From the IMG/VR virus record IMGVR_UViG_3300007523_000633, positions 1 through 25,486 of that record: a stretch of DNA of 25,486 nt. The stretch is one strand, 5' to 3'. The position numbers were made by a program, and so were the translations under genes. The DNA is from a virus. This document shows, in pieces, positions 619-25,486 of this stretch (positions are counted from its first letter, which is position 1; each line of letters opens with the position of its first letter). The notes beneath the pieces are model-generated. The model ran no database searches, was not told where the DNA came from, and saw only the letters and a list, made by a program, of their open reading frames with translations.

Positions 619-1349
619 TTCGTAAACTCGTTGCCTTTATTATCGTTAGCAATGATATTTACATCGCCATTGTATTTAAACTTTATGTAAGGATCTTGTG
701 CAATTGATATTTCTGTATCTGCTTGCATAACAATCATGTCATTGTCGTCAACCCAGGTAATAGTTTTAATAATCCATTCAGGTATATACCCACCCGAATC
801 TAAATCTTTTTGTAACCCAGTAAACATAGGATGTTTAATCCTAGTAGTCTGATATCCATCTTTTGATTTATATAATATCTTACCTAAGTCTAGAGTAAGT
901 TCTGGATCATGTACATCCATGTATCCTGAACACCCACCGCTAGCTCTAATGCCAGTTTTGTGTGCAAACAGTTGACCTTGGATTGTTTCTCCAACTATAC
1001 GAACATAACTGTCTGTTTCCATTCTAATACGTGTTGATATTTCAGTTGTTTGTGTACGCTTTGTTAACTTAAATGTTGCCGCATGCTGTGTAGGATTGCC
1101 ATCAATGATTAAATGTAGGGCAACAAAACGATCAGTGGCAACAGTAATAGTTATAGGTACCTGTGCACCACTTGACGCTCTTACAGGACCTGATATTGTT
1201 AGTTCATCATTGTCTGCTAACTCAACAACTGGTCTCGTGCCAAACAATCGTTCTTTAACATAGGGCCATACATCATCGTTAAAATTCTTAGCATCATAAG
1301 CAACTGCTGTAGATGCAAAAAACATTAGTGCTATCAGTAGATATCTCAT
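615..1349 (-). CDS. secreted SoxYZ-like carrier, quinoprotein dehydrogenase-associated type
   Basis: 244 residues. Residues 1-17 form a signal peptide (hydrophobic core, AVA cleavage site), so the product is exported. The mature part starts with a DVWPYVKERLFG-type segment, then a SoxY-like beta-sandwich with LIIDGNP (about 80-86) and a GGCSG motif (138-142, Cys140) matching the carrier cysteine of SoxY. A SoxZ-like domain follows (about 160-230; IKHPMFTG, then TEISIAQDPYIKF). This order matches the fused SoxYZ-like carriers encoded beside PQQ-dependent alcohol/methanol dehydrogenases; their exact chemistry is unsettled. The ATG has an AGAGGG ribosome-binding site and a TAATG overlap with the upstream gene. 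It lies between two paralogous phage genes and looks like an acquired host-type metabolic gene. Identification rests on remembered family features, not a search. Confidence 0.78.
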   Translation of the reverse strand: MRYLLIALMFFASTAVAYDAKNFNDDVWPYVKERLFGTRPVVELADNDELTISGPVRASSGAQVPITITVATDRFVALHLIIDGNPTQHAATFKLTKRTQTTEISTRIRMETDSYVRIVGETIQGQLFAHKTGIRASGGCSGYMDVHDPELTLDLGKILYKSKDGYQTTRIKHPMFTGLQKDLDSGGYIPEWIIKTITWVDDNDMIVMQADTEISIAQDPYIKFKYNGDVNIIANDNKGNEFTK

Positions 1350-2692
1350 TATGCCCTCTGTGGCTCCCCACCTGAATATCCTGTTAATGACACTGGGTAT
1401 CCGTACTCATCTAACATTTGATCTATACCTTTCTTAAACTGATCATCAGCTAACCCACTTGAATTTCTTTCTTTTTCTATTCTTGACAAGCCATTTAAAA
1501 ATTTCTCTAGCTTCTGTACTTTAGGCTCTTTACTCAGACTGTCATCGTTACTGTATTCAATGCTGACAAACATATCAGAATCTACAGTTACAGCATACAG
1601 TGATGACGATGCACCAAGCTCACAGTATGTTACACCTAAACATTTATTTGATACCGCATCAAACCAACCATACGCTATTCCAGCCTCTGCTTGTCCTTCA
1701 AAGTTGCCCCAGTCCTCTTGATCCATCATACCCTTTTCTATCAGGGTTCTAAGAGTTCTACCACTTATTGGCCAACTATCATAACTGCCAGTAGCCGCAT
1801 TTAAACTTAAAGTATACATATCACCGTGCTTGCCTTGAGAATATAGTATAGCCCCGTCACTTTCTTTCTTCCACTTGGCATAATCTTCATCTGACATCAT
1901 CGCCGGAACCATTTTACGTTTAGCCCATTCTGTCATTGAGCTAACATTACGCAGTGTTGGATAACGTTTAACTACTGCATACATATCAACTTCTGAATCA
2001 GAGGCATCCATAAACTGTCCAGTATGGAAATGGAATTGATATTTCTCTCCTGGAGTCTGAGGTTTCTTAGGAAGGATAATGTACATATCGCCTGTTTTAT
2101 GATAGTGCTTGAACATGTTGTTATTTTTACTTGCTGTACACCAACGTGTGCCTTGTCCGTAGTAGCATGCGGCTTCTTCGTCCTTGGGAACTATTACACG
2201 TATATGCTCGTCATCATATATTTGTTTAGAATCACCTTTGTTTGTAGGAGTGTCATCGTCTATTTTTGGATACTGTTCAACTCGTGTTATTAGATCGTTG
2301 AACGATGTAAACTTGTCAATTTGTTTATCGTCTGCTTCTAGTTTCTTTTTAAGTTTCAGCTTGTGATATGTTTCTAAAGCATCTCTCAGCGTAGACTTTA
2401 TGTCTTCTAATTCATAGCCACCACGACTGTACATACGTGCTATCCATTGGCTGTATTCTTTATTCTTTGTTGGATCACCTTGCTCAATTTGTGCCATTAC
2501 TTTATTCATAAAGTCTGCACGCTCTTGAGCATTGTAAAGGTTTATTGCGTCTTTAGAACTAGTCATTAGATTCCACACATCTAAATCACGTCCAGGAGTC
2601 TTGTTTTTATTAAGAGCGGTAAGGATATTAGCACCGTGAACTTGTGCAGTCTTTTCTCTTGAATATTCCGTTATAAAGTTTCTTGCTCTCAT
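1349..2692 (-). CDS. GTRWCT-motif phage protein, full-length paralogue
   Basis: 447 residues, no signal peptide or membrane segment, function not recognised. The N-terminus MRARNFITEY is nearly identical to that of the partial gene at 1-618. Residues 11-125 are charged and mostly helical-looking. The conserved core AACYYGQGTRWCTA lies at about 174-187, followed by NNMF and DMYIILP, suggesting a beta-rich domain whose Cys, Trp and Arg are candidates for function. The C-terminal half (about 270-440) has no motif I know. The start overlaps the upstream stop by one base (TAATG), so translation is coupled. The first nine residues fit a capsid-targeting peptide (I-T-E at 7-9). A packaged enzyme or effector is possible but unproven. 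Confidence 0.85.
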   Translation of the reverse strand: MRARNFITEYSREKTAQVHGANILTALNKNKTPGRDLDVWNLMTSSKDAINLYNAQERADFMNKVMAQIEQGDPTKNKEYSQWIARMYSRGGYELEDIKSTLRDALETYHKLKLKKKLEADDKQIDKFTSFNDLITRVEQYPKIDDDTPTNKGDSKQIYDDEHIRVIVPKDEEAACYYGQGTRWCTASKNNNMFKHYHKTGDMYIILPKKPQTPGEKYQFHFHTGQFMDASDSEVDMYAVVKRYPTLRNVSSMTEWAKRKMVPAMMSDEDYAKWKKESDGAILYSQGKHGDMYTLSLNAATGSYDSWPISGRTLRTLIEKGMMDQEDWGNFEGQAEAGIAYGWFDAVSNKCLGVTYCELGASSSLYAVTVDSDMFVSIEYSNDDSLSKEPKVQKLEKFLNGLSRIEKERNSSGLADDQFKKGIDQMLDEYGYPVSLTGYSGGEPQRA

Positions 2693-3033: not shown

Positions 3034-3764
3034 AGTTTATAAGTCCACTGTTTGTACCATGCACCAGTACCTGGTAATATATTTTTATCGCTTTCGGGCA
3101 ATACTAGATTGTCTTTCTCAAATGAGTCTTTTGCGTCCTTGACCAGTGCTTCATAGTTAGGATCGTTCTTAATTTTATTTATAATGGTCTCAACTGACTG
3201 CATGTCCTTTACGGTCCCACCTAACAGTTTGTCTGCTATCTCTGCAGGGTCTTTAGTGATAACTTCGTTACTGGCCCGACTAATTAATCCGTACTTTTGG
3301 CTCCATTTTAATCCCAAGTGTTTAGCTATGCTTGACAATAATATGTGCCTATGCAATCCTTTAAACGGTGAGCCTTCCGGCGAGCCCATTAGGCTAAACT
3401 GTTGCCACTTAGGATCACCAAACATAAAGTCTACTTGTACAAATCCATTATTAGCATCACCTAAGATAGGTGCTTTATAGTGTACACTGTCTCCGCTCTT
3501 GCGTAAGTCTTCTTGGTTAACACCGTTACGTAGCAGTTGGGTAATCAATGTTTGTTTGTCTATTTTAGTTTCGTCGATGCCAAGATCTAAATCACCCGAT
3601 GTTGCTTTACGACCTGTTGACCCTAGCATGTTGTCCACTAGGTTAAGACCCGTTAGTTTTTCTAACCATTTGACTGTAGGAACGACATCAGCAAGATTGA
3701 TACGTTGGGTAAGAGGTTCACCCTTTTCATTTTTAAAAACATTACCGCCTTCTAGTAATATCAT
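3030..3764 (-). CDS. nucleotidyltransferase-fold protein (pol beta superfamily)
   Basis: 244 residues. Residues 48-64 read GSTGRKATSGDLDLGID, the G-S...D-x-D signature of the polymerase beta-like nucleotidyltransferase superfamily (Asp58 and Asp60). A third candidate metal ligand, Asp112, lies in the strand QVDFMFGD. Substrate cannot be told: members modify nucleotides, proteins, RNA or antibiotics. The N-terminus MILLEGGNVFK contains an early L-L-E, a possible prohead-protease site. The ATG overlaps the upstream HAD gene (ATGA, 3761-3764). I considered a toxin-antitoxin nucleotidyltransferase, but there is no cognate partner and the gene is embedded in a long phage operon. Confidence 0.7.
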   Translation of the reverse strand: MILLEGGNVFKNEKGEPLTQRINLADVVPTVKWLEKLTGLNLVDNMLGSTGRKATSGDLDLGIDETKIDKQTLITQLLRNGVNQEDLRKSGDSVHYKAPILGDANNGFVQVDFMFGDPKWQQFSLMGSPEGSPFKGLHRHILLSSIAKHLGLKWSQKYGLISRASNEVITKDPAEIADKLLGGTVKDMQSVETIINKIKNDPNYEALVKDAKDSFEKDNLVLPESDKNILPGTGAWYKQWTYKL

Positions 3765-4330
3765 GCTCTTGACCCCTCCTCAACGCTTTCGCTCAGTTGC
3801 CCGTATGACATAGCCAAACTGTCTGATACTTTTTGTAAACTATCTTCATCTGCTTGGTATTTAATTCCAATCCCACCCGCGTCTCTCCAGGATTGTATAT
3901 TAGATCCCTTGTCATCTATTAGGATATTGGGACTGCCATCACGGGTATTAATTGCATATTGCGCTTTGTTGCTAGCAATTTGAATTGTTTGTGGTTGTGG
4001 AGTTAGTTTGGCTCGAATCCAAATCTTTTTCCAATATGCAGAATTAGCGAAGTCGTTACGTAACGGACTTGAACAGATACTGTATCCACCAGCATAACTA
4101 ATAGCAAGTTTTACTAGTGCATCTGATGTAGGGAACTTAGGTAAGCGTGAAAAGAAATCAGTACCCACCATTTGGTTTAATATAGGGTCTGCTTTGGCTG
4201 GCGGAATATCTCGATATGACTTAACACCTGCCATCTTAGCGTATTCGGAGAAGAAATCCGCAAGAACACCATCCATGTCTAGGTAGATTACGGTATTCTT
4301 TGTGGCTCTTACTAGTTCGTTTGCTTTCAT
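3761..4330 (-). CDS. HAD-family 5'(3')-deoxyribonucleotidase-like phosphatase
   Basis: 189 residues with the ordered HAD motifs: motif I DMDGVLADF (Asp18 nucleophile, Asp20 acid/base), motif II SICSSP (Ser87/88), motif III Lys122 and motif IV ILIDD (Asp139/Asp140). This spacing and the small cap fit the 5'(3')-deoxyribonucleotidase group common in phages, where it may dephosphorylate nucleotides or act in DNA or RNA end repair. No kinase domain is fused, so it is not a full T4-type Pnkp. The ATG at 4330 lies only 6 bases after a GATAAATA motif and has no clear ribosome-binding site; there is no later in-frame ATG before motif I. It may be leaderless or translated by readthrough. Confidence 0.75.
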   Translation of the reverse strand: MKANELVRATKNTVIYLDMDGVLADFFSEYAKMAGVKSYRDIPPAKADPILNQMVGTDFFSRLPKFPTSDALVKLAISYAGGYSICSSPLRNDFANSAYWKKIWIRAKLTPQPQTIQIASNKAQYAINTRDGSPNILIDDKGSNIQSWRDAGGIGIKYQADEDSLQKVSDSLAMSYGQLSESVEEGSRA

Positions 4331-4336
4331 AACTAG

Positions 4337-4344
4337 TATTTATC
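4337..4344 (-). promoter_or_regulatory. candidate T4-type late promoter (GATAAATA)
   Basis: GATAAATA on the minus strand in the 23-base gap between the SpeD-like gene and the HAD gene. It is identical to motifs at five other sites here. Only 6 bases separate it from the HAD ATG, far closer than at the other sites (20-33), so transcription would start at or just before the ATG. Confidence 0.4.
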
Positions 4345-4353
4345 GTAGTTTGA

Positions 4354-4722
4354 TTATCCAGCTTGCCTAGTGAGATAGTTAATCCTAGTCTTTGTGGGTT
4401 TGAAAAATTCGTCTACAGTTTCTGCTACAGTTTCAACATCAAACTGTTTGCATGAAAACACGTCTAGGTACAAGTCACCAGTTGAATCGATAAAGTGTGC
4501 GACGATAGTTGACGTAACGATAATCTGCACAGCAGTCAATCCAGCTTTGTCCGGAAACTCTGCGGCAGTGTATTCTATGTGTGTAGAACCAATCGGTTTC
4601 ATGTCTATGCGATGCAATAAGGCATCAATGAAGTCTTGGACTGTTCGTGGATCTTTGATTGCTTCTCGGGTGCAATCGTGGCAATCTAAAGTGAGGTGGT
4701 AACCCCAATACATTGTACTCAT
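4354..4722 (-). CDS. speD: S-adenosylmethionine decarboxylase-like pyruvoyl enzyme
   Basis: 122 residues, the usual length of bacterial class 1B SpeD proenzymes. Self-cleavage would occur before Ser71, which would become the pyruvoyl group. His76 lies 5 residues later and Cys91 20 residues later, exactly the Ser63-His68-Cys83 spacing of the Thermotoga enzyme. The usual processing Ser (position 55 there) is Thr63 here, and the E-S-H context is T-S-T. The product would be decarboxylated SAM for polyamine synthesis, but no spermidine synthase is visible and some SpeD homologues have turned into other pyruvoyl decarboxylases, so substrate is uncertain. The ATG at 4722 follows a good TAGGAG site that overlaps the nuclease stop codon. 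Confidence 0.75.
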   Translation of the reverse strand: MSTMYWGYHLTLDCHDCTREAIKDPRTVQDFIDALLHRIDMKPIGSTHIEYTAAEFPDKAGLTAVQIIVTSTIVAHFIDSTGDLYLDVFSCKQFDVETVAETVDEFFKPTKTRINYLTRQAG

Positions 4723-4733
4723 TGAATTATCTC

Positions 4734-5480
4734 CTAGTTTTTCCAGTTGTCAACAGTGTACTTGACGGATTCGTCAACACCAGTTGTTTTGAAATCGATG
4801 CCGGTTAGTTGTTCAAGTTCTTTTACAGATACAGTATGGTTAGGCCATTCTTTCGCTGATAATTTGCTGTTAGGAAACAGGAATGCTATAGTCTTTCCGG
4901 TAGTAGCATCTGTTACTATCTTGTATACTTTAGTCGGAACACCTGTCGCCCCTACTTTTTTGTATCCAGCTTCATATATGGTACCACTAACAACATATAC
5001 ATCATTGCCTGCTCTAACTTGATCTCTAACCCACAGTTCTAACATGCGCCATATGCCGCGATTGTTTCCTGGGTCCTGTGGAATCATGTTTGACAGCAAG
5101 AAGCTCTCACTCATCACGTCATCATTTACTGTGTTTACCGCGGCTGGGCTTAGGTGGCCTCTATCGTATCCGGCACCTTTGTAGTCATCCATTGACGCCC
5201 TACAGTTCTCTGTTACTGTTGGATCTTCACGGAAATTATTCTTCCTTTTTGCGGGACCGTTAACAGTATCTTTAGTTATATGATCTAAGACATATCTAGC
5301 TGTACGTGTTTCACAACTATGCAATACAGCATAATTTGTTTTACATAGGTATTGATCACCAGCCGCATCTGTAGCTGTTGGAGCGCTACTTTTAGTAAAT
5401 TGTGAACATTTGTCATCTATAGGATTGGCTTGTACCGCCAGACTGAATGCTATTGCTAATATTGATAAAACATATTTCAT
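4734..5480 (-). CDS. secreted DNA/RNA non-specific endonuclease (DRGH family)
   Basis: 248 residues. Residues 1-18 are a signal peptide ending AVQA, so the enzyme is exported to the periplasm or beyond. The mature protein has the beta-beta-alpha-metal nuclease signature YDRGHLSPA (Asp106, Arg107, His109), SNMIPQ (Asn131), and NNRGIWRMLE (Asn140, Glu148). The Asn-to-Glu spacing of 8 equals that of Serratia nuclease (Asn119, Glu127). Four cysteines (25, 46, 56, 93) could form disulfides after export. It probably degrades nucleic acid outside the cytoplasm. The ATG has an AAGGA site and lies 31 bases below a TATAAATA motif, so late expression is likely. Confidence 0.85.
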   Translation of the reverse strand: MKYVLSILAIAFSLAVQANPIDDKCSQFTKSSAPTATDAAGDQYLCKTNYAVLHSCETRTARYVLDHITKDTVNGPAKRKNNFREDPTVTENCRASMDDYKGAGYDRGHLSPAAVNTVNDDVMSESFLLSNMIPQDPGNNRGIWRMLELWVRDQVRAGNDVYVVSGTIYEAGYKKVGATGVPTKVYKIVTDATTGKTIAFLFPNSKLSAKEWPNHTVSVKELEQLTGIDFKTTGVDESVKYTVDNWKN

Positions 5481-5511
5481 TGAATTTTCCTTAGGTTAAC
5501 TGCTAATATTA

Positions 5512-5519
5512 TATTTATA
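5512..5519 (-). promoter_or_regulatory. candidate T4-type late promoter (TATAAATA)
   Basis: TATAAATA on the minus strand, the canonical T4 late -10 element, 31 bases upstream of the nuclease ATG and overlapping the stop codon of the oxygenase-like gene. No credible -35 box lies at the right distance, as expected for late promoters that use a phage sigma factor. Confidence 0.6.
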
Positions 5520-6123
5520 TCACAGGCACCCAGGTGTTAAGAAGATAGGGAGTTGATTGTATATAATGCATAGGAACAAAATCCATAGATATAGATATCC
5601 TAGGAGCATCTTGGGTCCACAGTTGAACCATATGAGTATCTCCTTCGTCTTCATATATGCTTAAGGTATTATTTTTAGTGTCATGATCAAATATCTTTCC
5701 GTCTATGTATTTGTATCGGGTGATACTTGGTTCAGCATTAATATAATAGGTACAGACATAAGTCTCATCTAAATCACTCAGACCCTTCCAATGATGATGC
5801 CATGGTATAATTTCACCTTTTTGCTGATAATTTAACCAAGCATGTACATAGTAGTTGTGTTCGTATTCATTGATTTCTCTAAATGCTTGGCAGACTTCTT
5901 GATACAATTGGTTTATGCTGGTATAGGGAAATGTAAATACGTTGTAGAAGTCATGCAATTTTGAACTTGTGGGTGCCTGTTCCAGTTGTTCAGCTAATAT
6001 ATTTTGATATCCCTTGTCATTAGGAATTTCCTGGTTGGCATAGGTCCTTACAACCTTGTTGTTAATCCGTCGGCAATCTTTCTTGAGCTGTTCTAGATCT
6101 AACTGAGTTTCAACGATCCTCAT
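5515..6123 (-). CDS. putative 2-oxoglutarate/Fe(II) oxygenase-like protein
   Basis: 202 residues from the ATG at 6123. The frame is open 11 codons further up, but only to a TTG; the ATG overlaps the desaturase stop as ATGA, so it is preferred. Key residues are WHHHW (108-112), a distal His164 (DTHMVQLW) and Arg175 in PRISISMDF. This fits the double-stranded beta-helix fold of phage 2OG-Fe(II) oxygenases: two iron ligands near the first motif, the third at His164, and Arg175 binding 2-oxoglutarate. The strict H-x-D is not evident (H-H-H instead), so activity is less certain. Its place at the end of the desaturase/FabF operon hints at a lipid or small-molecule substrate, but nothing fixes it. 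Confidence 0.6.
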   Translation of the reverse strand: MRIVETQLDLEQLKKDCRRINNKVVRTYANQEIPNDKGYQNILAEQLEQAPTSSKLHDFYNVFTFPYTSINQLYQEVCQAFREINEYEHNYYVHAWLNYQQKGEIIPWHHHWKGLSDLDETYVCTYYINAEPSITRYKYIDGKIFDHDTKNNTLSIYEDEGDTHMVQLWTQDAPRISISMDFVPMHYIQSTPYLLNTWVPVI

Positions 6124-6845
6124 TTTCTCAATAACCTTGTTAACTGATAAGTCCAATCAATGCCGCCGTCGCTTGCGTGGTCGTCCCACTGTGGGTTTGC
6201 ATGGTGATTACCGTGCCATGTTTCTCCAAATCCAAACCACATATAACTTCTAGTGTTGCTTGGCCCTTTCTTGTCGTGTTGTAGTAATAATACAAAAGCT
6301 ACTGCCCACAGTGTCAAGCTGGCTGGTATCGCCCAGGCAAACAAGAACAGTTTCCAACTAATCAAATACATTATGCCTGCATTAGCAAACACAAACAACC
6401 AGTAGTAATCATGTACCCAATGATATCTTTTCATTAAACTAATTAGATTTTTACTAAACACAACATCTTCTGCGTGTACAAATTTATGGTAACAGTAGAG
6501 TAAACTACGCCACCCCCTAGCAGGACCATGAACATCATGTTTGGTATCACTGTATCTGTGATGGATGTTGTGTACGCTGACATAACTTAACGGAGAACCC
6601 AGCCCTGGCATAAACGCACACCAAGCCACAAACCATTCTACTGGTTTGCTCATTTCAAAATACCTATGACTGAAATATCTGTGCATGCCAATGTTGTTAC
6701 CTATACACAAATATAAAAAGTAAAATACAAATGATACCAACCACCATGTCCACTCTGCATCTAACCCAACAAAAATAAACACTGGTAACAATATCTGTAA
6801 CAGAGTCATCCAGACATAATTAGGTTTTATTAGATAGTCAATCAC
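6120..6845 (-). CDS. membrane fatty-acid desaturase, copy 2
   Basis: 241 residues. The three histidine boxes of delta-9-type membrane desaturases are present: HRYFSH (55-60), HNIHH (92-96) and HGNHH (211-215). These bind the di-iron centre that inserts a cis double bond into an acyl-CoA or lipid acyl chain. Hydrophobic spans lie at about 12-50, 70-90 and 146-190. It starts at a GTG (6845) with an AAGGA site, overlapping the upstream desaturase by 8 bases. It is a tandem paralogue of the gene at 6838-7620. At 241 residues it is shorter than most bacterial relatives (about 280-330), but all catalytic boxes are kept. Electron donor and substrate are unknown. Confidence 0.88.
   Translation of the reverse strand: MIDYLIKPNYVWMTLLQILLPVFIFVGLDAEWTWWLVSFVFYFLYLCIGNNIGMHRYFSHRYFEMSKPVEWFVAWCAFMPGLGSPLSYVSVHNIHHRYSDTKHDVHGPARGWRSLLYCYHKFVHAEDVVFSKNLISLMKRYHWVHDYYWLFVFANAGIMYLISWKLFLFAWAIPASLTLWAVAFVLLLQHDKKGPSNTRSYMWFGFGETWHGNHHANPQWDDHASDGGIDWTYQLTRLLRK
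6372..6395. repeat. 24-base exact repeat shared by the two desaturase genes
   Basis: These 24 bases recur exactly at 7126-7149 in the same orientation and encode the shared FVFANAGI segment. They support origin of the two desaturases by tandem duplication and could allow recombination between them. Confidence 0.85.
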
Positions 6846-7620
6846 GATCTGGTTGTCCTTGCCAATTGTATTTTGGCATAAAGAATTTACTGGTCTGATA
6901 GGTCCAATCTATTTCACCTGAGTTGACTGCGGTGTCAGGAGCCCCAGGGTGTAAATGATGATTGAGATGTAGTCCTTCGTACAAGTAGTCCCAACGATGT
7001 AAAGGTGAATTGTTAGGTTCCATGTGCCAATGCTGACGCCATACTGCCCAACCAATACCCCAGCATGCCGCACTAGCAGGAATTAACCACACAAACAAAA
7101 ATAACTTGTAATCTATCAACCACAATATGCCTGCATTAGCAAACACAAATGGAATATAAAATTTATGTAGTAATCCGTACTTTCTACCTAACTGTGCGAT
7201 ATGTTTACTAAACACAGGAGTTTCTTTTGGGTCTACTGTTTTTTGAAACCATATCAACCATGAACGCTTACCACGTTGTGGTCCGTGTGGATCATATTTT
7301 GTATCTGAATGTTTGTGATGAATGATGTGTGTCATAGCATAACTTAAAGGTTCGCCTAGTCCAATCATTGACCCTGTCCATAGGAAGAAATACTCTACAG
7401 GCTTTGCGACTTTAAAATGTGCATGGGTAAAATATCTATGTAAGGCAATGTTGTTACCAATCATTGAATACACAATGGTATAGAAAAATACTGCTATAGC
7501 CCACCAATGCCAACTAGCACCTGATTGTATGCCTAAGTAAATACCCAATGGTAAACTTAGTTGTAGTAATCCAGTTGCGGCTGTACTGGGAGCCATATAT
7601 TTTAATATCTTATCCATCAT
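6838..7620 (-). CDS. membrane fatty-acid desaturase, copy 1
   Basis: 260 residues. Histidine boxes are HRYFTH (61-66), HIIHH (98-102) and HLNHH (218-222), again the delta-9 acyl-CoA/acyl-lipid desaturase pattern, with hydrophobic spans between them. Shared landmarks with the neighbour include IGNNI before box 1, GLG(E/S)PLSY before box 2, SDTK(Y/H)D(P/V)HGP after box 2, and FVFANAGI. The two differ most around box 3, so they may differ in chain or position specificity. Start is one of two adjacent ATGs (7620 or 7617) inside the end of the FabF gene, an 11- or 8-base overlap that indicates translational coupling. Confidence 0.88.
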   Translation of the reverse strand: MMDKILKYMAPSTAATGLLQLSLPLGIYLGIQSGASWHWWAIAVFFYTIVYSMIGNNIALHRYFTHAHFKVAKPVEYFFLWTGSMIGLGEPLSYAMTHIIHHKHSDTKYDPHGPQRGKRSWLIWFQKTVDPKETPVFSKHIAQLGRKYGLLHKFYIPFVFANAGILWLIDYKLFLFVWLIPASAACWGIGWAVWRQHWHMEPNNSPLHRWDYLYEGLHLNHHLHPGAPDTAVNSGEIDWTYQTSKFFMPKYNWQGQPDRD

Positions 7621-8833
7621 ATCTTTCTAACACTATACTAGCGTTACGTCCCCCAAATCCAAAACTATTCTTTATAGCGTATTTAATATCTAAATTAGTC
7701 CTAGTTGTTGGTAGCAACATTCCATCTCCACATGGATCTATTAGATTAGCATTACCAGGGACCTGGCTATCACGCATACCTTGTAATGTGTATATTGTTT
7801 CTACTATTCCAGCACCAGCCATGGTATGTCCAAGTTGCCCTTTGTTACTGACCATTGTACGACCTGGAGTAATATCTTTCATAGCATCAAACTCAACTTG
7901 ATCACCAACAGGAGTGCTAGTTGCGTGGGCATTAACAAGGTCAATACTACTAGCCGGAATGCCTGCTTTACTTAACGCCATGTTAACACATTGTCTAGCA
8001 CCATGCCCCTCGGGGTCAGGACTAGTATCACTGTCAAATAATGTAACAAATCCTGTACCTTTAACAATGCCGTATATTTTACTATTTCTTGCTCGGGCCT
8101 TGCTTAATGGCTCGATGATAATTGTTGCGGCACCTTCTCCCATAACAAATCCATTGCGGCTTTTGTCAAAAGGGAAACTGCCTTCAGAACTTAATGCTCC
8201 GAGGCTTTGAAACCAATACATATAAATTGGTTCTGCTATATGGTCACTGCCACCTACTATCATAGCATCTAATTCAGGATTTGCTTTTAGTGTATTAATT
8301 GCATGCTCTATACTAGTTAATCCTGTAGTGCAAGCACTGTCTAATGCAGTGTTAGGTCCTTGTACTTTATAGATTGCACTCACTTGTGCGGCAGGAAAAT
8401 CTAATCCAATGTTTAGACTTTTCCTAGGACTTATTTTTTTAACACCGTTGTTTAGTGCTGAGAATATTTCTAATCTCAAACTAGTGCCTGACCCAAACGT
8501 GCTAACTACAACGCCTACGTTTTTACTAGTAAGGTTACTATCATTGATTGCTTCATCAACTGACATTAAACAAGCACGAGTATTTGGATCCCAATTTGGC
8601 CATCCGTAATTAAAATAGTCTGGATGTTGGTCACTTTCTTGTAGCTTTGGACTTATGCCTGCTATTTTTATTTTTAATGCTGAGTGTGTGTTAGGAAACT
8701 TTGTGTCATCATCATCGGGCCAGATGATTGGACAAATTGCTGATTTTCCGGATAATAGATTTTGCCAACTTGATTCTGCTGTTGTGCCTAATCCATTATG
8801 GATACCTATTCCGGTTATAACGTACTGTTCCAT
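7610..8833 (-). CDS. beta-ketoacyl-ACP synthase II-like enzyme
   Basis: 407 residues, the normal length of FabF. Counting from the ATG at 8833, the active-site Cys168 lies in DSACTTG, His303 in NAHATSTP, and Lys331/His336 in SNKGQLGH, giving the Cys-His-His triad plus Lys. The C-terminal NSFGFGGRNAS motif is also present. The reaction is condensation of malonyl-ACP with an acyl-ACP, elongating it by two carbons. The frame extends one TTG codon further, but the ATG has a TAGGAAG site. With the two overlapping desaturase genes it forms an acyl-chain elongation/desaturation cassette. A related ketosynthase of a polyketide or aryl polyene pathway cannot be excluded, but no ACP or reductase is present. 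Confidence 0.85.
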   Translation of the reverse strand: MEQYVITGIGIHNGLGTTAESSWQNLLSGKSAICPIIWPDDDDTKFPNTHSALKIKIAGISPKLQESDQHPDYFNYGWPNWDPNTRACLMSVDEAINDSNLTSKNVGVVVSTFGSGTSLRLEIFSALNNGVKKISPRKSLNIGLDFPAAQVSAIYKVQGPNTALDSACTTGLTSIEHAINTLKANPELDAMIVGGSDHIAEPIYMYWFQSLGALSSEGSFPFDKSRNGFVMGEGAATIIIEPLSKARARNSKIYGIVKGTGFVTLFDSDTSPDPEGHGARQCVNMALSKAGIPASSIDLVNAHATSTPVGDQVEFDAMKDITPGRTMVSNKGQLGHTMAGAGIVETIYTLQGMRDSQVPGNANLIDPCGDGMLLPTTRTNLDIKYAIKNSFGFGGRNASIVLERYDG

Positions 8834-8861
8834 CAACTTCCTAAATTATAGTAGTATATAA

Positions 8862-9371
8862 CTAATTATCAGAAACTAAGGCACAGACTGTGTTTTCTGG
8901 CAGATTTAGGTTAACAGTTTTTCCAGGAAAAATTTTAGCGTGTTGGAGACTGACTAGAGGTTTGTCATTGGCTGTGATCGGCCCGGTTATGCAGACAACA
9001 GTGATACGTTTGTCTATAGCATTAACTGTTTTGGTTGTAGGACCTTTGATAATTTCAACGTCTAACGTTCTAGTGTCTGGAATAGGGTTAAACAACATTA
9101 GGCTTAGGCTTTGATCTTGTGTTTGTGTCACATGTTCCATTGCTTTGAAATCTTTAAGATCTATTAATTGTCCAGCACTATCGTCATCTCTTTGCGATAC
9201 GATATTACCGTCTTTGTCTTTGATAGTTCCTGTTCCCTTTCCTTCTACAATGTATGTACATTGATGGTAGTGTCCGTTGCCATTATTATGATATACATTA
9301 GTTTCGTGCGGCCCAAAATAAGCCATACAGTAGATAAAATTGCCTGCATTAACAGCATTATTTAATATCAT
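8862..9371 (-). CDS. cupin-fold protein
   Basis: 169 residues, cytoplasmic. Residues about 32-48 (NGHYHQCTYIVEGKGTG) match cupin motif 1 (G-x-H-x-H-x(n)-E-x(n)-G), with metal ligands His34, His36 and Glu43. HVTQ near 79-82 may supply the motif-2 His. The C-terminal half (about 105-169) has a second set of beta strands and looks like a diverged cupin half or a stabilising domain. Cupins include dioxygenases, isomerases and binding proteins, so no reaction can be assigned. The start overlaps the upstream small gene as ATGA and the FabF-desaturase operon follows after 28 bases, so it may serve the same pathway or be a structural protein. Confidence 0.55.
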   Translation of the reverse strand: MILNNAVNAGNFIYCMAYFGPHETNVYHNNGNGHYHQCTYIVEGKGTGTIKDKDGNIVSQRDDDSAGQLIDLKDFKAMEHVTQTQDQSLSLMLFNPIPDTRTLDVEIIKGPTTKTVNAIDKRITVVCITGPITANDKPLVSLQHAKIFPGKTVNLNLPENTVCALVSDN

Positions 9372-9706
9372 AGTATGACTTCAGGATTTGCTAATCCTTC
9401 AACTGGTTGTGGTTGCAATGTAGGTAACTCAGTGGCAACTACCGTAGCAACATGTCCACTCCAGTTAGACATGTCTAAAGGGGTTGGGGGATTTTCTGCT
9501 AGATCTCTTTGTTGAACATACATGCTGATCTGTGGCCGGATAGCCTCAATGAATTCCTCTAGATTATTCACTATAAAATTTGTAGTTTGGAATGCTACAG
9601 CAGGATATTCGTCTATGGATTTCTTGCTGTTTTCTGAACTATATTTTACTAGTACGGTGTGAGAGTCTTGGTCAACTTCCACAATTTTGATATTGATATT
9701 ACTCAT
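9368..9706 (-). CDS. conserved-looking phage protein, unknown function
   Basis: 112 residues, no signal peptide or membrane span. The N-terminal half has beta-strand character (INIKIVEV, HTVLVKYSS) and the C-terminal third is Pro-rich (about 86-112). The gene starts at 9706, 14 bases after the adhesin-like gene, and overlaps the cupin gene as ATGA. Its position right after the glycine-rich protein would suit a small tail-fibre assembly or tip protein, but this is context only. Confidence 0.65.
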   Translation of the reverse strand: MSNINIKIVEVDQDSHTVLVKYSSENSKKSIDEYPAVAFQTTNFIVNNLEEFIEAIRPQISMYVQQRDLAENPPTPLDMSNWSGHVATVVATELPTLQPQPVEGLANPEVIL

Positions 9707-9720
9707 TGATACTCTTTATA

Positions 9721-11409
9721 TTATATTGAATGTGGGTCAACGTAAGCTGTTCCTGCTCGTCGAGGCCCTGCTATAGTACCTTCTGTTATTATAACAACGT
9801 TATCATTTCCATTTATTGCTGGACCTGCTAACCCACCTACGCCACCTGGATTGGTATCAGCTGTTCCTGCTATCCCTGCTGATCCACGAGCCCCACCAGC
9901 TCCACCAAGACCTGCACCTGCACCTGCGGCACTTACGGTACCATTGTTAGCACCAGCACCATACCCAGCACCCCCACCACCTTGACCTCCGGTAGGTCCG
10001 CCACCACCACCACCACCACCACCGCCACCGGCAATGATGTTGTTGTTTACTAATTTGATTGGATATGCTATATCTAATGCAGTACCACCCGAAGCGCCAG
10101 GACGTCCTGGAATTGATGTTGTTCTTACTGTACGGCCTTTGCTAGTGCCGTATACTGGTCTACCTTTACTGTCGAGTTCGGTACCACCAGTGCTAGTATA
10201 ACTACCTGCAGGCCCACCGTCACCACCACGACCCTGGACTGTTCCGTTGTTTATTAGCCATACAGTATCACCAGCTGTTAATCCATTGACAAGCAATGCT
10301 GATTGCCCACTTGACGAACTACTGACTATTACATTACTGTTAACTGTGAGAGCAATATTTGATCTTCCTGGATAATAACTTGTTGCACTAAGATAATCAG
10401 ATAACACGTAGTTGTTTGCACTAGCCGCAATAGTTATGTTAACTTGTACCGGAGATGCTGGCAATGTTGCTGTTCTAGTAGGAGTTAGGTTAACACCACT
10501 TTGTATTGGTTCCCAAACACCATCTGCTTTAATCCACCCTGCTGTAATCTGTTTCCAGAGACCACTAGTCTTAACCCAAGCATTAGTGACTTCTTTCCAT
10601 GTTGAATCTTTAATCCAAGTTTGGAAATTTTTAGTAAATATTAAAATTATTGCACCATCATATCCAGCATAGCCTTTCTTACCACGTGGATAAACTGCAT
10701 TAGTTAGTCCACCCGGAGTTGTATTTGATCCTGCTGTTAATGTTGAACTAGCAACTAAAGCATTAGCATAATTTTGTCCACCATATCCACCACCAGGAGC
10801 TCCTACATCATCTGCTACCGAAAGTCCTGCGGAACCACCAAACGGATATCCAGCACCCCCACCACCGCCTGTAGCGTATGCTGTTGTAGAATTTTGTCCT
10901 CTTGGTATACTAGTAACTGATGTAGCAACACCACCCGCATATCCTACTGCGCCAAGTTGGTAACTAGCACCGCCCCCAGCGCCGCCGCCGCCTGCGGCTA
11001 CTATCATAGGAACACTGCCTATTAGAACAGCACTTGCTCCACCACCTCCACCACCTGCGCCATTATATCCTTCGTCGTATGAATTGCTTGCTCCAGCAGA
11101 TCCGCCTGTAAATGATATTATAGGATTAGTTCCGTCACCACCTAATGAAGTAGTTCCTGTGCCTGCTCTACCGTTTTGTCCACGTGTGCCTACAGAAACA
11201 GTTATAACATCACCAGAAGATATAGTAACTATACCTTGTGCAAATCCTGCACCACCACCAAGTTGACCATTAGCGCCAGAATGTCTAGCACCTGCGCCTC
11301 CACCTGCTCCCCATGCGTACACTAGGAGTTGATTGCTAAAACCAGCTGGCACTGTTACACGGTGACTACCTGGTGATAGATATTGGAATAGTACTTGATT
11401 TGTGGCCAT
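9721..11409 (-). CDS. glycine-rich adhesin / tail-fibre tip-like protein
   Basis: 562 residues. Two large glycine-rich blocks (about 34-250 and 395-545) flank a central segment with three repeats of the form W(I/V)K-x(n)-W (about 265-300; WIKDSTW, WVKTSGLW, WIKADGVW). A run of about ten consecutive glycines lies near residues 460-470. Blocks of polyglycine strands are the hallmark of distal tail-fibre adhesins such as gp38 of T-even-like phages, where they form a sandwich carrying receptor-binding loops, so a host-recognition role is likely. The ATG is coupled (TAATG) to a 36-codon gene and has an AAGGAAG site. No enzyme motif is present. It could instead be a general fibre with glycine-rich domains. 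Confidence 0.65.
   Translation of the reverse strand: MATNQVLFQYLSPGSHRVTVPAGFSNQLLVYAWGAGGGAGARHSGANGQLGGGAGFAQGIVTISSGDVITVSVGTRGQNGRAGTGTTSLGGDGTNPIISFTGGSAGASNSYDEGYNGAGGGGGGASAVLIGSVPMIVAAGGGGAGGGASYQLGAVGYAGGVATSVTSIPRGQNSTTAYATGGGGGAGYPFGGSAGLSVADDVGAPGGGYGGQNYANALVASSTLTAGSNTTPGGLTNAVYPRGKKGYAGYDGAIILIFTKNFQTWIKDSTWKEVTNAWVKTSGLWKQITAGWIKADGVWEPIQSGVNLTPTRTATLPASPVQVNITIAASANNYVLSDYLSATSYYPGRSNIALTVNSNVIVSSSSSGQSALLVNGLTAGDTVWLINNGTVQGRGGDGGPAGSYTSTGGTELDSKGRPVYGTSKGRTVRTTSIPGRPGASGGTALDIAYPIKLVNNNIIAGGGGGGGGGGGPTGGQGGGGAGYGAGANNGTVSAAGAGAGLGGAGGARGSAGIAGTADTNPGGVGGLAGPAINGNDNVVIITEGTIAGPRRAGTAYVDPHSI
10001..10030. repeat. CCA/CCG trinucleotide microsatellite inside adhesin-like gene
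   Basis: Seven CCA units followed by CCG, CCA, CCG on the plus strand encode ten consecutive glycines. Slippage would add or remove whole glycine codons without breaking the frame. Confidence 0.85.
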
Positions 11410-11519
11410 TAATTATCTTCCTTTGGTTCTACAGGAATCAATTGATCTAACACTTCTTCAGTTGTGTTTTTTTGATTATATGTCCACTCAATGGAGTCAA
11501 AAAATTCTGTTAGTAACAT
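11409..11519 (-). CDS. 36-residue protein leading the adhesin operon
   Basis: A short gene found in the gap upstream of the adhesin-like protein. ATG at 11519, TAA at 11409-11411 overlapping the next ATG by one base (TAATG). The product begins MLLTEFFDSIEW and is acidic, with no membrane span. It lies 33 bases downstream of a GATAAATA late-promoter motif. The promoter position, exact coupling and open frame together support a real gene. The start resembles the capsid-targeting-like N-termini of other proteins here (L-T-E at 3-5), though less convincingly. Confidence 0.6.
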   Translation of the reverse strand: MLLTEFFDSIEWTYNQKNTTEEVLDQLIPVEPKEDN

Positions 11520-11552
11520 AGATTATATCCGTAATGCTCTTAATATTAAATA

Positions 11553-11560
11553 TATTTATC
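11553..11560 (-). promoter_or_regulatory. candidate T4-type late promoter (GATAAATA)
   Basis: GATAAATA on the minus strand, 33 bases upstream of the 36-codon gene, driving the adhesin operon leftward. It lies 13 bases from the -35 box of the divergent plus-strand promoter, forming a back-to-back early/late pair. Confidence 0.6.
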
Positions 11561-11573
11561 ACCTTTTTAACAC

Positions 11574-11602
11574 TTGACAACTTTCACTAATGAGTGTATA
11601 AT
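11574..11602 (+). promoter_or_regulatory. consensus sigma70 promoter
   Basis: TTGACA (11574-11579), a 17-base spacer, and TATAAT (11597-11602): a perfect host housekeeping promoter on the plus strand. Transcription should start near 11608-11610, about 27 bases before the ATG of the only plus-strand gene. A GTG at 11594 in the same frame overlaps the -10 box and cannot be the start. Confidence 0.85.
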
Positions 11603-11635
11603 ACAACTTCTTATAACAGCTCAAGGTCTAAAAAT

Positions 11636-12082
11636 ATGCAAAATTTAGGTGAAAAATTAAACAAAATGATAGCAGATCCAATAGAAGGACCATATGAAGG
11701 AGAGGATTTTTGGGTTGATAGCAAAGGTGTTATACAAGTGGGCGAAAATAATGTTAGATTAGCTGGAACAATCTTGCGTAAAGTGAATTTAAGTGGTAAG
11801 TTTGATAAAAAACTAGTTAAAATAGGCACAAAGGGAGATAGTATAATGTTAGCATTTGACTCTCTTGGTAGCACTGCACCAGTTTATACAGCAAAGATTG
11901 GATTCAAGGGCGATATATTGACGCAAGTGCGCAAAAGTGAACAGGGAGAATTTTTCCTGTACATCAACGGAAAACGTAATGCTAAAGTATTTTCTAAAAT
12001 GTCAACAATAAAGACAGCAATCAACAAGTTAGATAAGGAAATGCAGGCAGCCGCTACTGAGCCAGAAGATTTAGATGACTAA
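11636..12082 (+). CDS. unknown protein, sole plus-strand gene, early promoter
   Basis: 148 residues from the ATG at 11636, with AAGG 9 bases upstream; the longer frame to a GTG at 11594 is excluded because that codon sits in the promoter. The product is charged, without signal peptide or membrane span. A beta-rich middle (about 22-118; VKIGTKGDSIMLAF, FFLYING) precedes a helical, acidic tail (about 120-148, ending PEDLDD). I do not recognise the family. Being the only gene facing right and having a perfect host promoter, it is probably transcribed by unmodified host polymerase early in infection. Its stop overlaps the stop of the convergent gene by four bases. Confidence 0.75.
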   Translation: MQNLGEKLNKMIADPIEGPYEGEDFWVDSKGVIQVGENNVRLAGTILRKVNLSGKFDKKLVKIGTKGDSIMLAFDSLGSTAPVYTAKIGFKGDILTQVRKSEQGEFFLYINGKRNAKVFSKMSTIKTAINKLDKEMQAAATEPEDLDD

Positions 12083-13290
12083 GGTTTTTGTTGTAGCTGT
12101 TTTGCCCGTTGGATCAATGGTTTCATTTGATTGGCCAATTCTGGATTTTCAGCGGTAGTCTTGATGATGTCCATCATAGGTTCTAAAGCCTTCATATCCT
12201 GTTGAGTGGTCGTCTTTCCTTGGCTTGCGGCATCAATTGCTTTAGCTAATACTCCAGGTTGTACCACACTTCCAGTCGCTTGTTTTAAGGTACTAGTGGC
12301 TTGTGCTACGTTTTTTAATTGCTCCGCATCTGGTTTTTCACCGTCGGTTCCAACAGTACCTGTAGTACCTACGGTTCCTGTAGTACCTTCTGTTCCATAT
12401 TCGTCAACTATTTTCTTAAACTTACTCATGTCATATGGTTTGTTTCTTGGTACTTTTGAATAATCTGGCACTTTGATCTCACCCTTGGCAAACTTATCCC
12501 GGGTTTCTTTGTTCTTAAACCAAGTGTCTAATGTTTTGGATGCTTTGCTTTCGTCAGCTACTATACCTTGCTGTTTTGCTTGTGCCTGTAGTTCTGCCAT
12601 GCGCTTTATCACCTGACTTTTCAATTCAGGGTCTTTGTGCATGTTTGGATCTATCTGGATGTCCTGCAATGCCTTCATTTTGGCATCGTATTCTTCTTTA
12701 TCTTTCAATGGAAGAACTTTATATTCATCTAATTTTAGCATAGCATGTGTGCCTTGCTTGGTCTTTAATAACGTTTGTAAATCTTTAGGATACAATGGCC
12801 CAATTGAATCAACATCTTTACGTGTTGGCATATCTAATGCAAGCCAGATTTTAAATTCTTTGTCTGTCATTTTTGCCCAAGAGTTCCAATCAATTGATAC
12901 TTTTTCGTCGCCTTTAACTGCTTGGTGAAACCATGTTGATCTATCATCATCTTGTTCTTGCCATTGTTCAAGTTTCCAGTCTGTGGACTCTTCTTCATCG
13001 TCTTTTATGATAGTATATTGTTCTTGCGGTTTGTGCCCTCTGGCATGCCTAGAGCCTTCACGTGCTGGTCGACGGTCAAGGGTATCTTTGAACTCTGCCC
13101 ATTTTTCAGCAAGTTCTTCTTCTAGTGTCTTAGGAGTTTTGCCTTTGCTAAGATCTTTAATTATGCTTTCTTCCTCTTCACCAACTAGTTTATCACCAAC
13201 AGGTCCTTTATCTGTACCTTTGTAATATCCAGTAAATTTTGGATCTTCTGTAATTGTATTAAATTTCTCTAATATGTTTTTAATATCCAT
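12079..13290 (-). CDS. hydrophilic low-complexity phage protein
   Basis: 403 residues, very rich in Lys, Asp, Glu and Gln, with no membrane span or recognised domain. Long predicted helices dominate. A Gly/Thr/Val repeat (GTTGTVGT-type, about residues 300-316) forms a flexible linker before a helical C-terminus (about 322-403). The start MDIKNILEKF contains I-L-E with Glu8, fitting the capsid-targeting pattern seen in several neighbours. The composition would suit a scaffold or internal head protein, but no motif proves it. Starts at ATG 13290 behind an AGG site, 5 bases after the Dps gene. Confidence 0.7.
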   Translation of the reverse strand: MDIKNILEKFNTITEDPKFTGYYKGTDKGPVGDKLVGEEEESIIKDLSKGKTPKTLEEELAEKWAEFKDTLDRRPAREGSRHARGHKPQEQYTIIKDDEEESTDWKLEQWQEQDDDRSTWFHQAVKGDEKVSIDWNSWAKMTDKEFKIWLALDMPTRKDVDSIGPLYPKDLQTLLKTKQGTHAMLKLDEYKVLPLKDKEEYDAKMKALQDIQIDPNMHKDPELKSQVIKRMAELQAQAKQQGIVADESKASKTLDTWFKNKETRDKFAKGEIKVPDYSKVPRNKPYDMSKFKKIVDEYGTEGTTGTVGTTGTVGTDGEKPDAEQLKNVAQATSTLKQATGSVVQPGVLAKAIDAASQGKTTTQQDMKALEPMMDIIKTTAENPELANQMKPLIQRAKQLQQKP

Positions 13291-13295
13291 AATAC

Positions 13296-13733
13296 CTAAA
13301 CCTTAGATGTTGCACGGAGGAACCATGCGTGTTTTGCAAAAGCGTCCTGACGCCCTGCTATAAAATCACTAATTCCATATTCTTTTATAGCTTCTGACTC
13401 AACAAATAATACTTTCATGATCTCTTGCATTTTTTCGGCATCAGCCAATAACTCTGCTACCATGCTTTGAGGATCTAATACTTCAATTTCATCATCAATG
13501 TTAGTCAATGTACTAAATCTATATAAACTGGCAGGCGCATATGATTTTATTTTACGAATGTTTTCAGCAAAGTCATCTATACTAGCATACACTTCTGTAT
13601 AGATAGTGTCAAACAATTGATGCAATTGATAGAAGTCTGAACCTTCTACATTCCAATGAAAGTTCTGTGCTTTGATTGCAAATGTGTATTGACTAGCAAA
13701 TGCTATTTTTAATTGGTTAGTAAACTTATCCAT
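13296..13733 (-). CDS. Dps-like mini-ferritin
   Basis: 145 residues, four-helix ferritin-like protein of the Dps family. The ferroxidase ligands are all present at Dps spacing: His26 (FHWNV), His38, Asp42, Asp53 and Glu57 (DDFAE), matching His31/His43/Asp58/Glu62 of Dps offset by five. The C-terminus keeps the family RQDAFAKHAWFLRA helix. Such proteins form 12-mers that oxidise Fe(II) with peroxide, store iron, and sometimes bind DNA. It lacks the long Lys-rich tail that E. coli Dps uses for DNA binding, so iron or peroxide detoxification is likelier than chromosome compaction. The start overlaps the upstream stop by one base (TAATG). Confidence 0.88.
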   Translation of the reverse strand: MDKFTNQLKIAFASQYTFAIKAQNFHWNVEGSDFYQLHQLFDTIYTEVYASIDDFAENIRKIKSYAPASLYRFSTLTNIDDEIEVLDPQSMVAELLADAEKMQEIMKVLFVESEAIKEYGISDFIAGRQDAFAKHAWFLRATSKV

Positions 13734-24242: not shown

Positions 24243-24881
24243 TTATTTATCGATTCCACGGTCCTTGTATGACTTAATTCCTTGCCATACCTGCTGATCT
24301 AACCAATGTTCTTGTACGTATTTGACATACTTCTTGTTAGGACCTTCCTCAATAAACTTCATAATGTCTGGGTTATCATGGGCTATAGGAAAATCTAATA
24401 TCTTGCTTAACCATTTTAGGTATCTATCTTTGTACAGGAAGAATGCTTCATGATCTAAATAGTGTACATCACCCAATGTGTCAAAGTAGTCAACAGCAAT
24501 AGGCAATGTTGTTTCTTTGCGTACTCTTTCTTGTTGTAGTGCGTTTACATATTGGTCTCTAACTATGACACATATCTGCACATTAACGCCAAGATCTCGT
24601 GCTACAGACGCCATTTTGTTAATTTTAGGCACCTGTTTTACACCATCGTATACAAAGGGTACACTTACATTAGCTAACCAGTAATCATGCCCTTCAAATT
24701 GGTCTAGAGTTAGTTTATCAGGGTTAACCCAATAGTCAGCAAACGGTTCTTGATCACTAGGAACCCAATACTCATCTAATAGATCTTTCCAACCACCAAC
24801 ATCAGGATGTAGGCTCAGTAGTCTACTAAACAAATGATTGCCTGACCCTTGCGGCCCTGTAATGATTAAGAGTTTCTTCAT
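24243..24881 (-). CDS. sulfotransferase-like P-loop protein, copy 2
   Basis: 212 residues. TGPQGSGNHLFSRLLSLHP (8-26) is a PAPS-binding P-loop variant of the sulfotransferase fold, where the loop binds the 5'-phosphosulfate. ICVIVRDQYVNAL (about 102-114) fits the 3'-phosphate-binding strand (R-D). A GWKDLLDEYW segment follows the loop. It would transfer sulfate from PAPS to a sugar or other acceptor; the acceptor is unknown and several catalytic features are weak, so it may be a related kinase-like P-loop protein. The start overlaps the upstream paralogue (ATGA, 24878-24881). Confidence 0.65.
   Translation of the reverse strand: MKKLLIITGPQGSGNHLFSRLLSLHPDVGGWKDLLDEYWVPSDQEPFADYWVNPDKLTLDQFEGHDYWLANVSVPFVYDGVKQVPKINKMASVARDLGVNVQICVIVRDQYVNALQQERVRKETTLPIAVDYFDTLGDVHYLDHEAFFLYKDRYLKWLSKILDFPIAHDNPDIMKFIEEGPNKKYVKYVQEHWLDQQVWQGIKSYKDRGIDK
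24244..24251 (-). promoter_or_regulatory. candidate T4-type late promoter (GATAAATA)
   Basis: GATAAATA on the minus strand, overlapping the last codons and stop of the sulfotransferase-like gene and 20 bases before the ATG at 24223. Confidence 0.5.
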
Positions 24882-25486
24882 GGTTTCTCTTTAAATGTTA
24901 CACCCAGTCGATTACCCATGTCAAGTTCGTTATGTTCAACAGCATGCACATACTTACGATTGGCATCATCTTCCAACAAGTGTTTGACATTTGAGTCTAC
25001 AGGAATGTTTACATCTAAACTCTTTACATAATCATTCTTGTACATATATAATAATTCATAGCTTAGAAATATGGGGTTATCTATACCACGCAATTGATTT
25101 AATAGCATAGGCAGTGTGCTTTCTTTACGTATTCTTGTTTGTTGTTCATGCAGTATATTTTGGTCTCTCCCAACCACTGCAAACTTAACTTTGACTCCTT
25201 GACGTTCAACAACACGTTTGAATAAATCTAAATTAGGTTCCCATAATGGGTTAACAGTATCATTGGGTATGCCTAACGGAACTGATATTGATGTAAAGTA
25301 GTTGTCGCTTTGTGACCAATCAAATTGACTTAGTAGACTAGGGTCGCGCCAATACTTAGCAAAGGGTTCAGCAGTGCGATGTGCCTCCCAATAGTTTTCC
25401 AATAGAGTTTTCCAGCCAAACACATCTGGATGTTGGCTAAACACTTTTGACCATAAGTGATTACCTGCTCCTTGTGGTCCTGTTAA
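24878..25486 (-). CDS. sulfotransferase-like P-loop protein, copy 1, 5' end outside window
   Basis: 202 codons seen; the frame stays open to the right edge, and the GTG at 25444 is an internal Val, since the P-loop LTGPQGAGNHLWSKVFSQHP begins before it. Probably only a few residues (about 6-8) are missing. It is a paralogue of the following gene: same P-loop, then DVFGWKTLLENYW, EPFAKYW, and VKFAVVGRDQN in the 3'-phosphate-binding position. Tandem copies suggest two related acceptors or a head-to-tail duplication. Substrate unknown. Confidence 0.68.
   Translation of the reverse strand, partial: LTGPQGAGNHLWSKVFSQHPDVFGWKTLLENYWEAHRTAEPFAKYWRDPSLLSQFDWSQSDNYFTSISVPLGIPNDTVNPLWEPNLDLFKRVVERQGVKVKFAVVGRDQNILHEQQTRIRKESTLPMLLNQLRGIDNPIFLSYELLYMYKNDYVKSLDVNIPVDSNVKHLLEDDANRKYVHAVEHNELDMGNRLGVTFKEKP

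Follow-up and report, generated by a model that had tools for sequence, protein, structure and literature searches.

A conserved phage cassette of FabF-like, desaturase and putative 2OG oxygenase genes as a candidate acyl-chain remodelling operon

IMG/VR record IMGVR_UViG_3300007523_000633, a viral contig of 25,486 bases that was analysed over its whole length (the window), carries on its minus strand a cassette encoding, in order, a FabF-like condensing enzyme, two membrane desaturases (DesA and DesB) and a putative 2-oxoglutarate (2OG)-Fe(II) oxygenase (Table 1). We consider it reasonably probable that this cassette is a phage acyl-chain remodelling operon, made late together with a tail-fibre-like gene, whose chains would go into the host membrane. 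All catalytic steps, the product, its destination and the benefit are what we infer. The FabF-like enzyme would condense malonyl-acyl carrier protein (ACP) with a host acyl-ACP, and host FabD, ACP, FabG, FabZ and enoyl reductase would finish the two-carbon extension, a related locus, L022, supplying a FabI-type reductase of its own. DesA and DesB would each introduce one double bond into this chain, whether it is carried as acyl-ACP, acyl-CoA or lipid, drawing on O2 and on electrons from a host donor; the established chemistry of the desaturase family is the removal of two hydrogens using O2 and donor electrons. The oxygenase might oxygenate that product too, or have another target, and the altered chains would most likely enter the host membrane late in infection.

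A preliminary description of the window had reported the first three genes as overlapping open reading frames (ORFs) forming one translational unit. The frames were indeed found at those positions, with an overlap of 11 bases between the FabF-like gene and DesA and of 8 bases between DesA and DesB, and the unit is longer than claimed, running on into the oxygenase gene, the ATG of which overlaps the DesB stop by 4 bases. The start codon of the FabF-like gene is ATG 8833, immediately preceded by an AGGA-type ribosome site, while the listed ORF begins one codon earlier, at TTG 8836. DesB is ≈45% identical to DesA. The FabF-like gene had also been called complete, which holds for the reading frame but not for the pathway: no ACP, reductase or dehydratase was found within the window cassette. 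Likewise, neither an ACP nor a ferredoxin partner (searched for only as 2Fe-2S Fer2) was found in the cassette records, which may be fragments, so that host partners would be needed. No RNA families were found in the window.

Both ketoacyl-synthase domains of the FabF-like protein were matched in Pfam (N-terminal, 8e-37; C-terminal, 5e-26). Alignment to the E. coli β-ketoacyl-ACP synthase (KAS) II, FabF (1b3n), showed that the nucleophile Cys168, His303, Lys331, His336 and the NSFGFGG gate were retained, and these residues and the gate are invariant in five aligned phage copies. The protein thus has the Cys-His-His triad with lysine and the two domains that define the KAS I/II enzymes, and among its profile matches KAS II ranked first, with 225 bits compared to ≈154 for E. 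coli KAS I. On the NCBIfam FabF equivalog model, TIGR03150, it scored 263.5 bits against a cut-off of 493.75, and it is therefore called FabF-like rather than a FabF equivalog. While the catalytic residues and the Phe gate are common to the phage and E. coli enzymes, the best cell match in 299 Pseudomonadota genomes was only 38% identical, and the phage copies grouped in a single, phage-only clade (SH-aLRT 99) whose long stem lay outside the KAS II rows included. The tree was unrooted and its cell sequences, with KAS II and KAS I rows, were from Pseudomonadota only; since the branches of other ketosynthases were very long and the tree was unrooted, the condensing enzyme could not be placed between KAS I and KAS II, and the tree does not identify a cellular donor lineage. 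A position outside the acyl elongation enzymes, which the preliminary description had named as grounds for abandoning its reading, was not found: by profile the protein is nearest to KAS II, yet it belongs to a very divergent lineage.

DesA and DesB matched the Pfam family FA_desaturase (4e-08 and 8e-11, respectively), both above the curated cut-off. Their His boxes, HRYFTH/HIIHH/HLNHH in DesA and HRYFSH/HNIHH/HGNHH in DesB, are intact, as had been described, and the stearoyl-CoA desaturase (SCD)/DesC-type pattern of HX4H, HXXHH and HXXHH was kept in all 116 of 116 desaturase ORFs, so that the loss of catalytic boxes in relatives, which would have spoken against the assignment, did not occur. 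In an alignment of 73 sequences, 72 of them viral, H61, H66, H98, H101, H102, H197, H221 and H222 were invariant and H218 nearly so; His197 is an additional ligand outside the boxes. A model of DesA built on this alignment had a mean predicted local distance difference test (pLDDT) score of 96.5; an earlier model based on 10 sequences (pLDDT 52) was discarded. The sole matches of the model in the PDB at E < 1e-3 were SCD1 structures, with template modelling (TM) scores (query) of 0.66–0.68, and the SCD matches ranked far above hydroxylase folds. The phage proteins share with SCD1 (4zyo, 4ymk and 6wf2) the fold, the order of the boxes and the His set, but are only ≈20% identical to it and consist of a minimal core of 241–260 residues. 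By boxes and predicted fold, DesA and DesB are thus SCD/DesC-type membrane desaturases with a putative double-bond-forming activity. All 26 of 26 cassette desaturases, including the five of L022, fell in one phage-only clade (SH-aLRT 99), far from the cell genes sampled in the tree, which fits duplication inside the phage lineage better than repeated capture.

We considered the possibility that the SCD-like proteins oxidise a non-fatty substrate, as hydroxylases or other oxidases, and that the FabF-like protein is a ketosynthase for another small molecule. Sequence does not reveal substrate specificity, and the FabF-like protein is divergent: following the catalytic His, it has HAT where HGT is usual. 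However, the SCD fold stands far above the hydroxylase folds, the set of nine His residues is kept, and a FabI-type reductase is coupled to the genes in L022; we therefore regard a non-fatty substrate as improbable. Acyl elongation and desaturation, as originally proposed, remains the best reading in view of the FabF-type residues, the SCD-type fold and the L022 reductase, the activities themselves being predicted.

The window comprises an entire contig, which also encodes virion structural proteins, an endolysin, a ClpA-like ATPase, a DnaJ-like protein and tail-fibre-like proteins. If an Acinetobacter record is set aside, the closest relatives of the ClpA-like protein come from jumbo phages, Phosso and PA5oct among them, and jumbo phages of this group are also matched by the major capsid gene of L023, a related 115-kb record. 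Based on these matches, a large T4-related phage is the probable source of the window, which would be a piece of its genome. Contamination by host DNA was rejected, because the flanking genes are of phage type and are conserved together with the cassette, bearing out the phage origin assumed at the outset. Co-occurrence in other phage genomes, a check that the preliminary description had proposed, was also found: FabF followed by desaturases is present in 8 further viral contigs (L001, L002, L003, L004, L010, L011, L019 and L013/L022), with 64–73% identity in FabF. The order of FabF, desaturases (DesA then DesB in the two-gene form) and 2OG gene is constant and the neighbours are mostly the same, as expected for an auxiliary metabolic cassette of phages; in L010, the 2OG gene lies ≈640 bases away from DesB. 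The cassette reading frames are ≈57–86% identical in related viral contigs, and the ratio of nonsynonymous to synonymous substitution (dN/dS) among related cassettes is 0.03–0.17. Such conservation shows that the ORFs are not due to chance, and the low dN/dS indicates that the cassette proteins are maintained under purifying selection. No recognisable desaturase of this kind was found in the isolate-phage collection. FabF matches in isolate-phage records appeared to be bacterial DNA (mostly unannotated, from mixed hosts, none above ≈35% identity) and were not used.

The sequence ATAAATA is the core of the T4 late promoter. In 12 loci of the group, the coding strand carries 58 copies and the opposite strand 4; 42 copies lie 10–45 nt 5' of an ORF start, compared to ≤14 for other 7-mers of the same letters. 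All eight motifs in the window are on the coding strand. One precedes the glycine-rich tail-fibre-like gene and the next is at the end of the oxygenase gene, with none between them and so none inside the cassette (Table 1). Relatives also carry a motif at the end of the oxygenase gene, mostly 24–53 nt before the next gene. A sigma-70 promoter scan of the region gave matches at chance level only. Since the motifs flank the cassette without occurring inside it, the cassette and the tail-fibre-like gene are predicted to lie on one late transcript, narrowing the time at which the cassette would act.

This predicted common transcript would also suit a function in the virion, in which acyl or hydroxyl groups are added to tail-fibre proteins, accounting for the position of the cassette in the tail-fibre region, as would its insertion in L022 between tail-fibre genes, some of them collagen-like. 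But the operon is without a protein acyltransferase, and the FabI and five desaturases of L022 point to acyl chemistry itself. Moreover, the tail-adjacent regions of T4-like phages often host inserted metabolic genes, and we consider a virion function very improbable.

In its expanded form (L013/L022), the cassette has FabF, five tandem desaturases, a 93-residue protein, a FabI-type enoyl reductase and the 2OG gene in one run. The best PDB match of the L022 reductase was FabI (1.8e-52), and the protein has a Y-X6-K motif. More distant desaturase relatives, with 20–30% identity, are located in other phage clusters, among them L032 and L033 (Table 1), which contain T4-type major capsid genes and look like a phage-owned acyl or polyketide pathway. 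With their ACP, AcpS, type III polyketide synthase (PKS)-like enzyme and many desaturases, these two clusters mean that, across the whole family, a dedicated acyl product has to be taken seriously as an alternative: a chain that is polyunsaturated, acetylenic or oxygenated, serving as a signal, an antibacterial or a superinfection blocker, rather than bulk lipid. The five desaturases beside a single FabF and a FabI in L022 are consistent with this, as are the ACP, AcpS, PKS-like enzyme, short-chain dehydrogenase/reductase (SDR) and oxygenases owned by the T4-like phage with seven desaturases, and the tight packing of oxygenase against desaturase genes in both L022 and the T4-like cluster. Against it, desaturases number just two in the window form, which lacks an ACP, a ligase, a thioesterase and an export gene, and membrane desaturases serve ordinary lipids too. 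For the window cassette, a dedicated product is thus rather unlikely.

The number of desaturases rises from two in the window to five in L022 (with FabF and FabI) and seven in L033 (with ACP, AcpS and the type III PKS-like enzyme). We tentatively raise the idea, itself doubtful, that large T4-related phages carry dedicated acyl-product pathways in which the desaturases duplicate in the phage, and that these would make a defined polyunsaturated or oxidised product late in infection rather than a general change in fluidity. If true, such pathways would amount to small natural-product clusters owned by lytic phages.

Other desaturase neighbourhoods were seen in passing. In L034 (4703–8624), a halogenase-like flavoprotein (by eye), an AMP-binding enzyme (PF00501) and a desaturase stand in a row; this phage contig also has capsid gene matches and genes that resemble T4 gp44/45/46 by eye. 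In the viral contig L038 (4841–15662), three desaturases are interleaved with 2OG-type, Rieske-like and P450-like genes (by eye). Two very divergent desaturase-like genes occur on the opposite strand inside the late region of L020 (10865–12587), and G007, the 218.9-kb record that holds L020, has five first-look desaturase candidates, the fifth one elsewhere in the record.

Three observations weigh against an operon for late remodelling of host membrane chains. The FabF-like protein lies so far below the equivalog cut-off, and on so long a branch, that its chain preference could be unusual. L020 has DesA-DesB-2OG without FabF, showing that the parts can separate. Finally, in cryopeg phages of similar size, FAD transcript coverage was low when capsid genes were high (PMC10405475), which calls for caution in assuming strong late expression of the cassette.

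The oxygenase protein matched PHROG 2696 (9e-11) and PHROG 81 (2.7e-8), with no Pfam 2OG match and no PDB match. Upstream of the cassette, the tail-fibre-like protein matched Pfam Gly_rich_2 below its cut-off and, weakly, PHROG 11439 (tail fiber), and the 169-residue protein had no Pfam match. The 169- and 112-residue proteins had been candidate members of the pathway, but tail-fibre clusters that lack both FabF and desaturases (L194 and L195) also contain the pair, and the two proteins were therefore assigned to the tail module. Downstream of the cassette, at 4734–5480, is a DNA/RNA non-specific endonuclease gene with a likely signal peptide and its own late-promoter-like motif, which follows the cassette in many relatives.

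Table 1. Features of the window and of two distant desaturase clusters.
Locus	Feature	Position	Strand	Evidence or content
Window	FabF-like β-ketoacyl-ACP synthase (KAS II type)	7610..8833	-	Pfam, PDB alignments to E. coli FabF, phage alignment; C168/H303/K331/H336, NSFGFGG gate
Window	DesA, SCD/DesC-type membrane diiron desaturase, 260 aa	6838..7620	-	Pfam, conserved His set, model pLDDT 96.5, SCD1 fold match
Window	DesB, second desaturase, GTG start	6120..6845	-	Pfam, His set
Window	Putative 2OG-Fe(II) oxygenase	5515..6123	-	PHROG 2696 and 81; kept downstream of DesB in relatives
Window	Conserved protein, 169 aa, cupin-like by eye only	8862..9371	-	Same predicted transcript as cassette
Window	Conserved protein, 112 aa, tail-fibre module companion	9368..9706	-	Conservation in relatives, tail-fibre clusters
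Window	Glycine-rich tail-fibre-like protein	9721..11409	-	First gene of predicted transcript; Gly_rich_2, PHROG 11439
Window	Late-promoter-like GATAAATA core	11553..11559	-	Upstream of tail-fibre-like gene
Window	Late-promoter-like TATAAATA	5512..5519	-	End of oxygenase gene, ahead of nuclease gene; marks next unit
L033	Putative acyl or polyketide cluster	3675-13469		ACP, AcpS-type phosphopantetheinyl transferase, type III PKS/chalcone-synthase-like, SDR, TauD/2OG oxygenases, radical SAM, up to seven tandem desaturases
L032	Putative acyl or polyketide cluster	5076-12488		ACP, AcpS-type, type III PKS-like, SDR, TauD/2OG and radical SAM kinds as in L033; three to seven desaturases across the pair

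Elsewhere in the window, at 24243–24881 and 24878–25486, are genes for two adjacent related proteins (GPQGSGNHLFS/GPQGAGNHLWS) that appear sulfotransferase-like by eye and had no Pfam or PHROG family match. In ten related loci, MRA[RK]xFIxE-like N-termini were present on otherwise unrelated proteins (26/184 plus-strand ORFs), and such starts also occur in the window at 1–618 and 1349–2692 (minus strand). By analogy with the T4 capsid-targeting peptides cut by gp21, which they resemble, they may mark head-packed proteins.

Multi-copy viral desaturases, phage fabF together with a desaturase and the membrane-fluidity idea are already published. T4-like cyanophages are said to carry lipid desaturases (this is attributed to Roitman, ISME J, 2018), and citations of that work name no FabF partner. 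Lake Baikal has also yielded a phage acyl-CoA desaturase (PMC7678222). The Rhodobacteraceae prophages for which fabG-acpP-fabF was listed (PMC8224337) also have fabF in a phage-like element, but there it is in a host-order FAS operon with no desaturases in the cluster. The published gene list for the freshwater pelagimyophages PMP-D (PMC7029224) includes fabF, a stearoyl-CoA desaturase and a 2OGFeDO protein; one phage group has the same three kinds of gene, named there without arrangement or copy number, and nucleic acid was considered the substrate of the 2OGFeDO protein. Desaturases with SCD-type motifs were described, together with a membrane-fluidity model, from phages of Arctic cryopeg brine and sea ice (PMC7300359); two of the phages, later extended to 222 and 230 kb (PMC10405475), have five each. 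The five candidates of the 218.9-kb G007 suggest that it may belong to the same phage group. In published work, Pseudomonas was the predicted host of relatives of ≈220 kb. The cryopeg and sea-ice phages share with the present cassette the SCD-type (4ZYO-like) desaturases, several per phage; unlike here, no operon or late-promoter context was given, the text of neither paper mentions FabF or 3-oxoacyl synthase, and that of PMC7300359 mentions no 2OG partner. In the open-licence literature, we came across no description of the fixed FabF-DesA-DesB-2OG operon, of a form enlarged by FabI or of a late-promoter context for it. Earlier accounts took phage desaturases for captured host genes with a membrane-softening role in the cold. 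In the present cassette, they are part of a conserved, phage-owned operon with a condensing enzyme and late-promoter-like motifs next to the tail genes, apparently able to grow by duplication, which turns a gene list into a testable pathway: which acyl chain is made, when, and whether for lysis, assembly or competition among phages.

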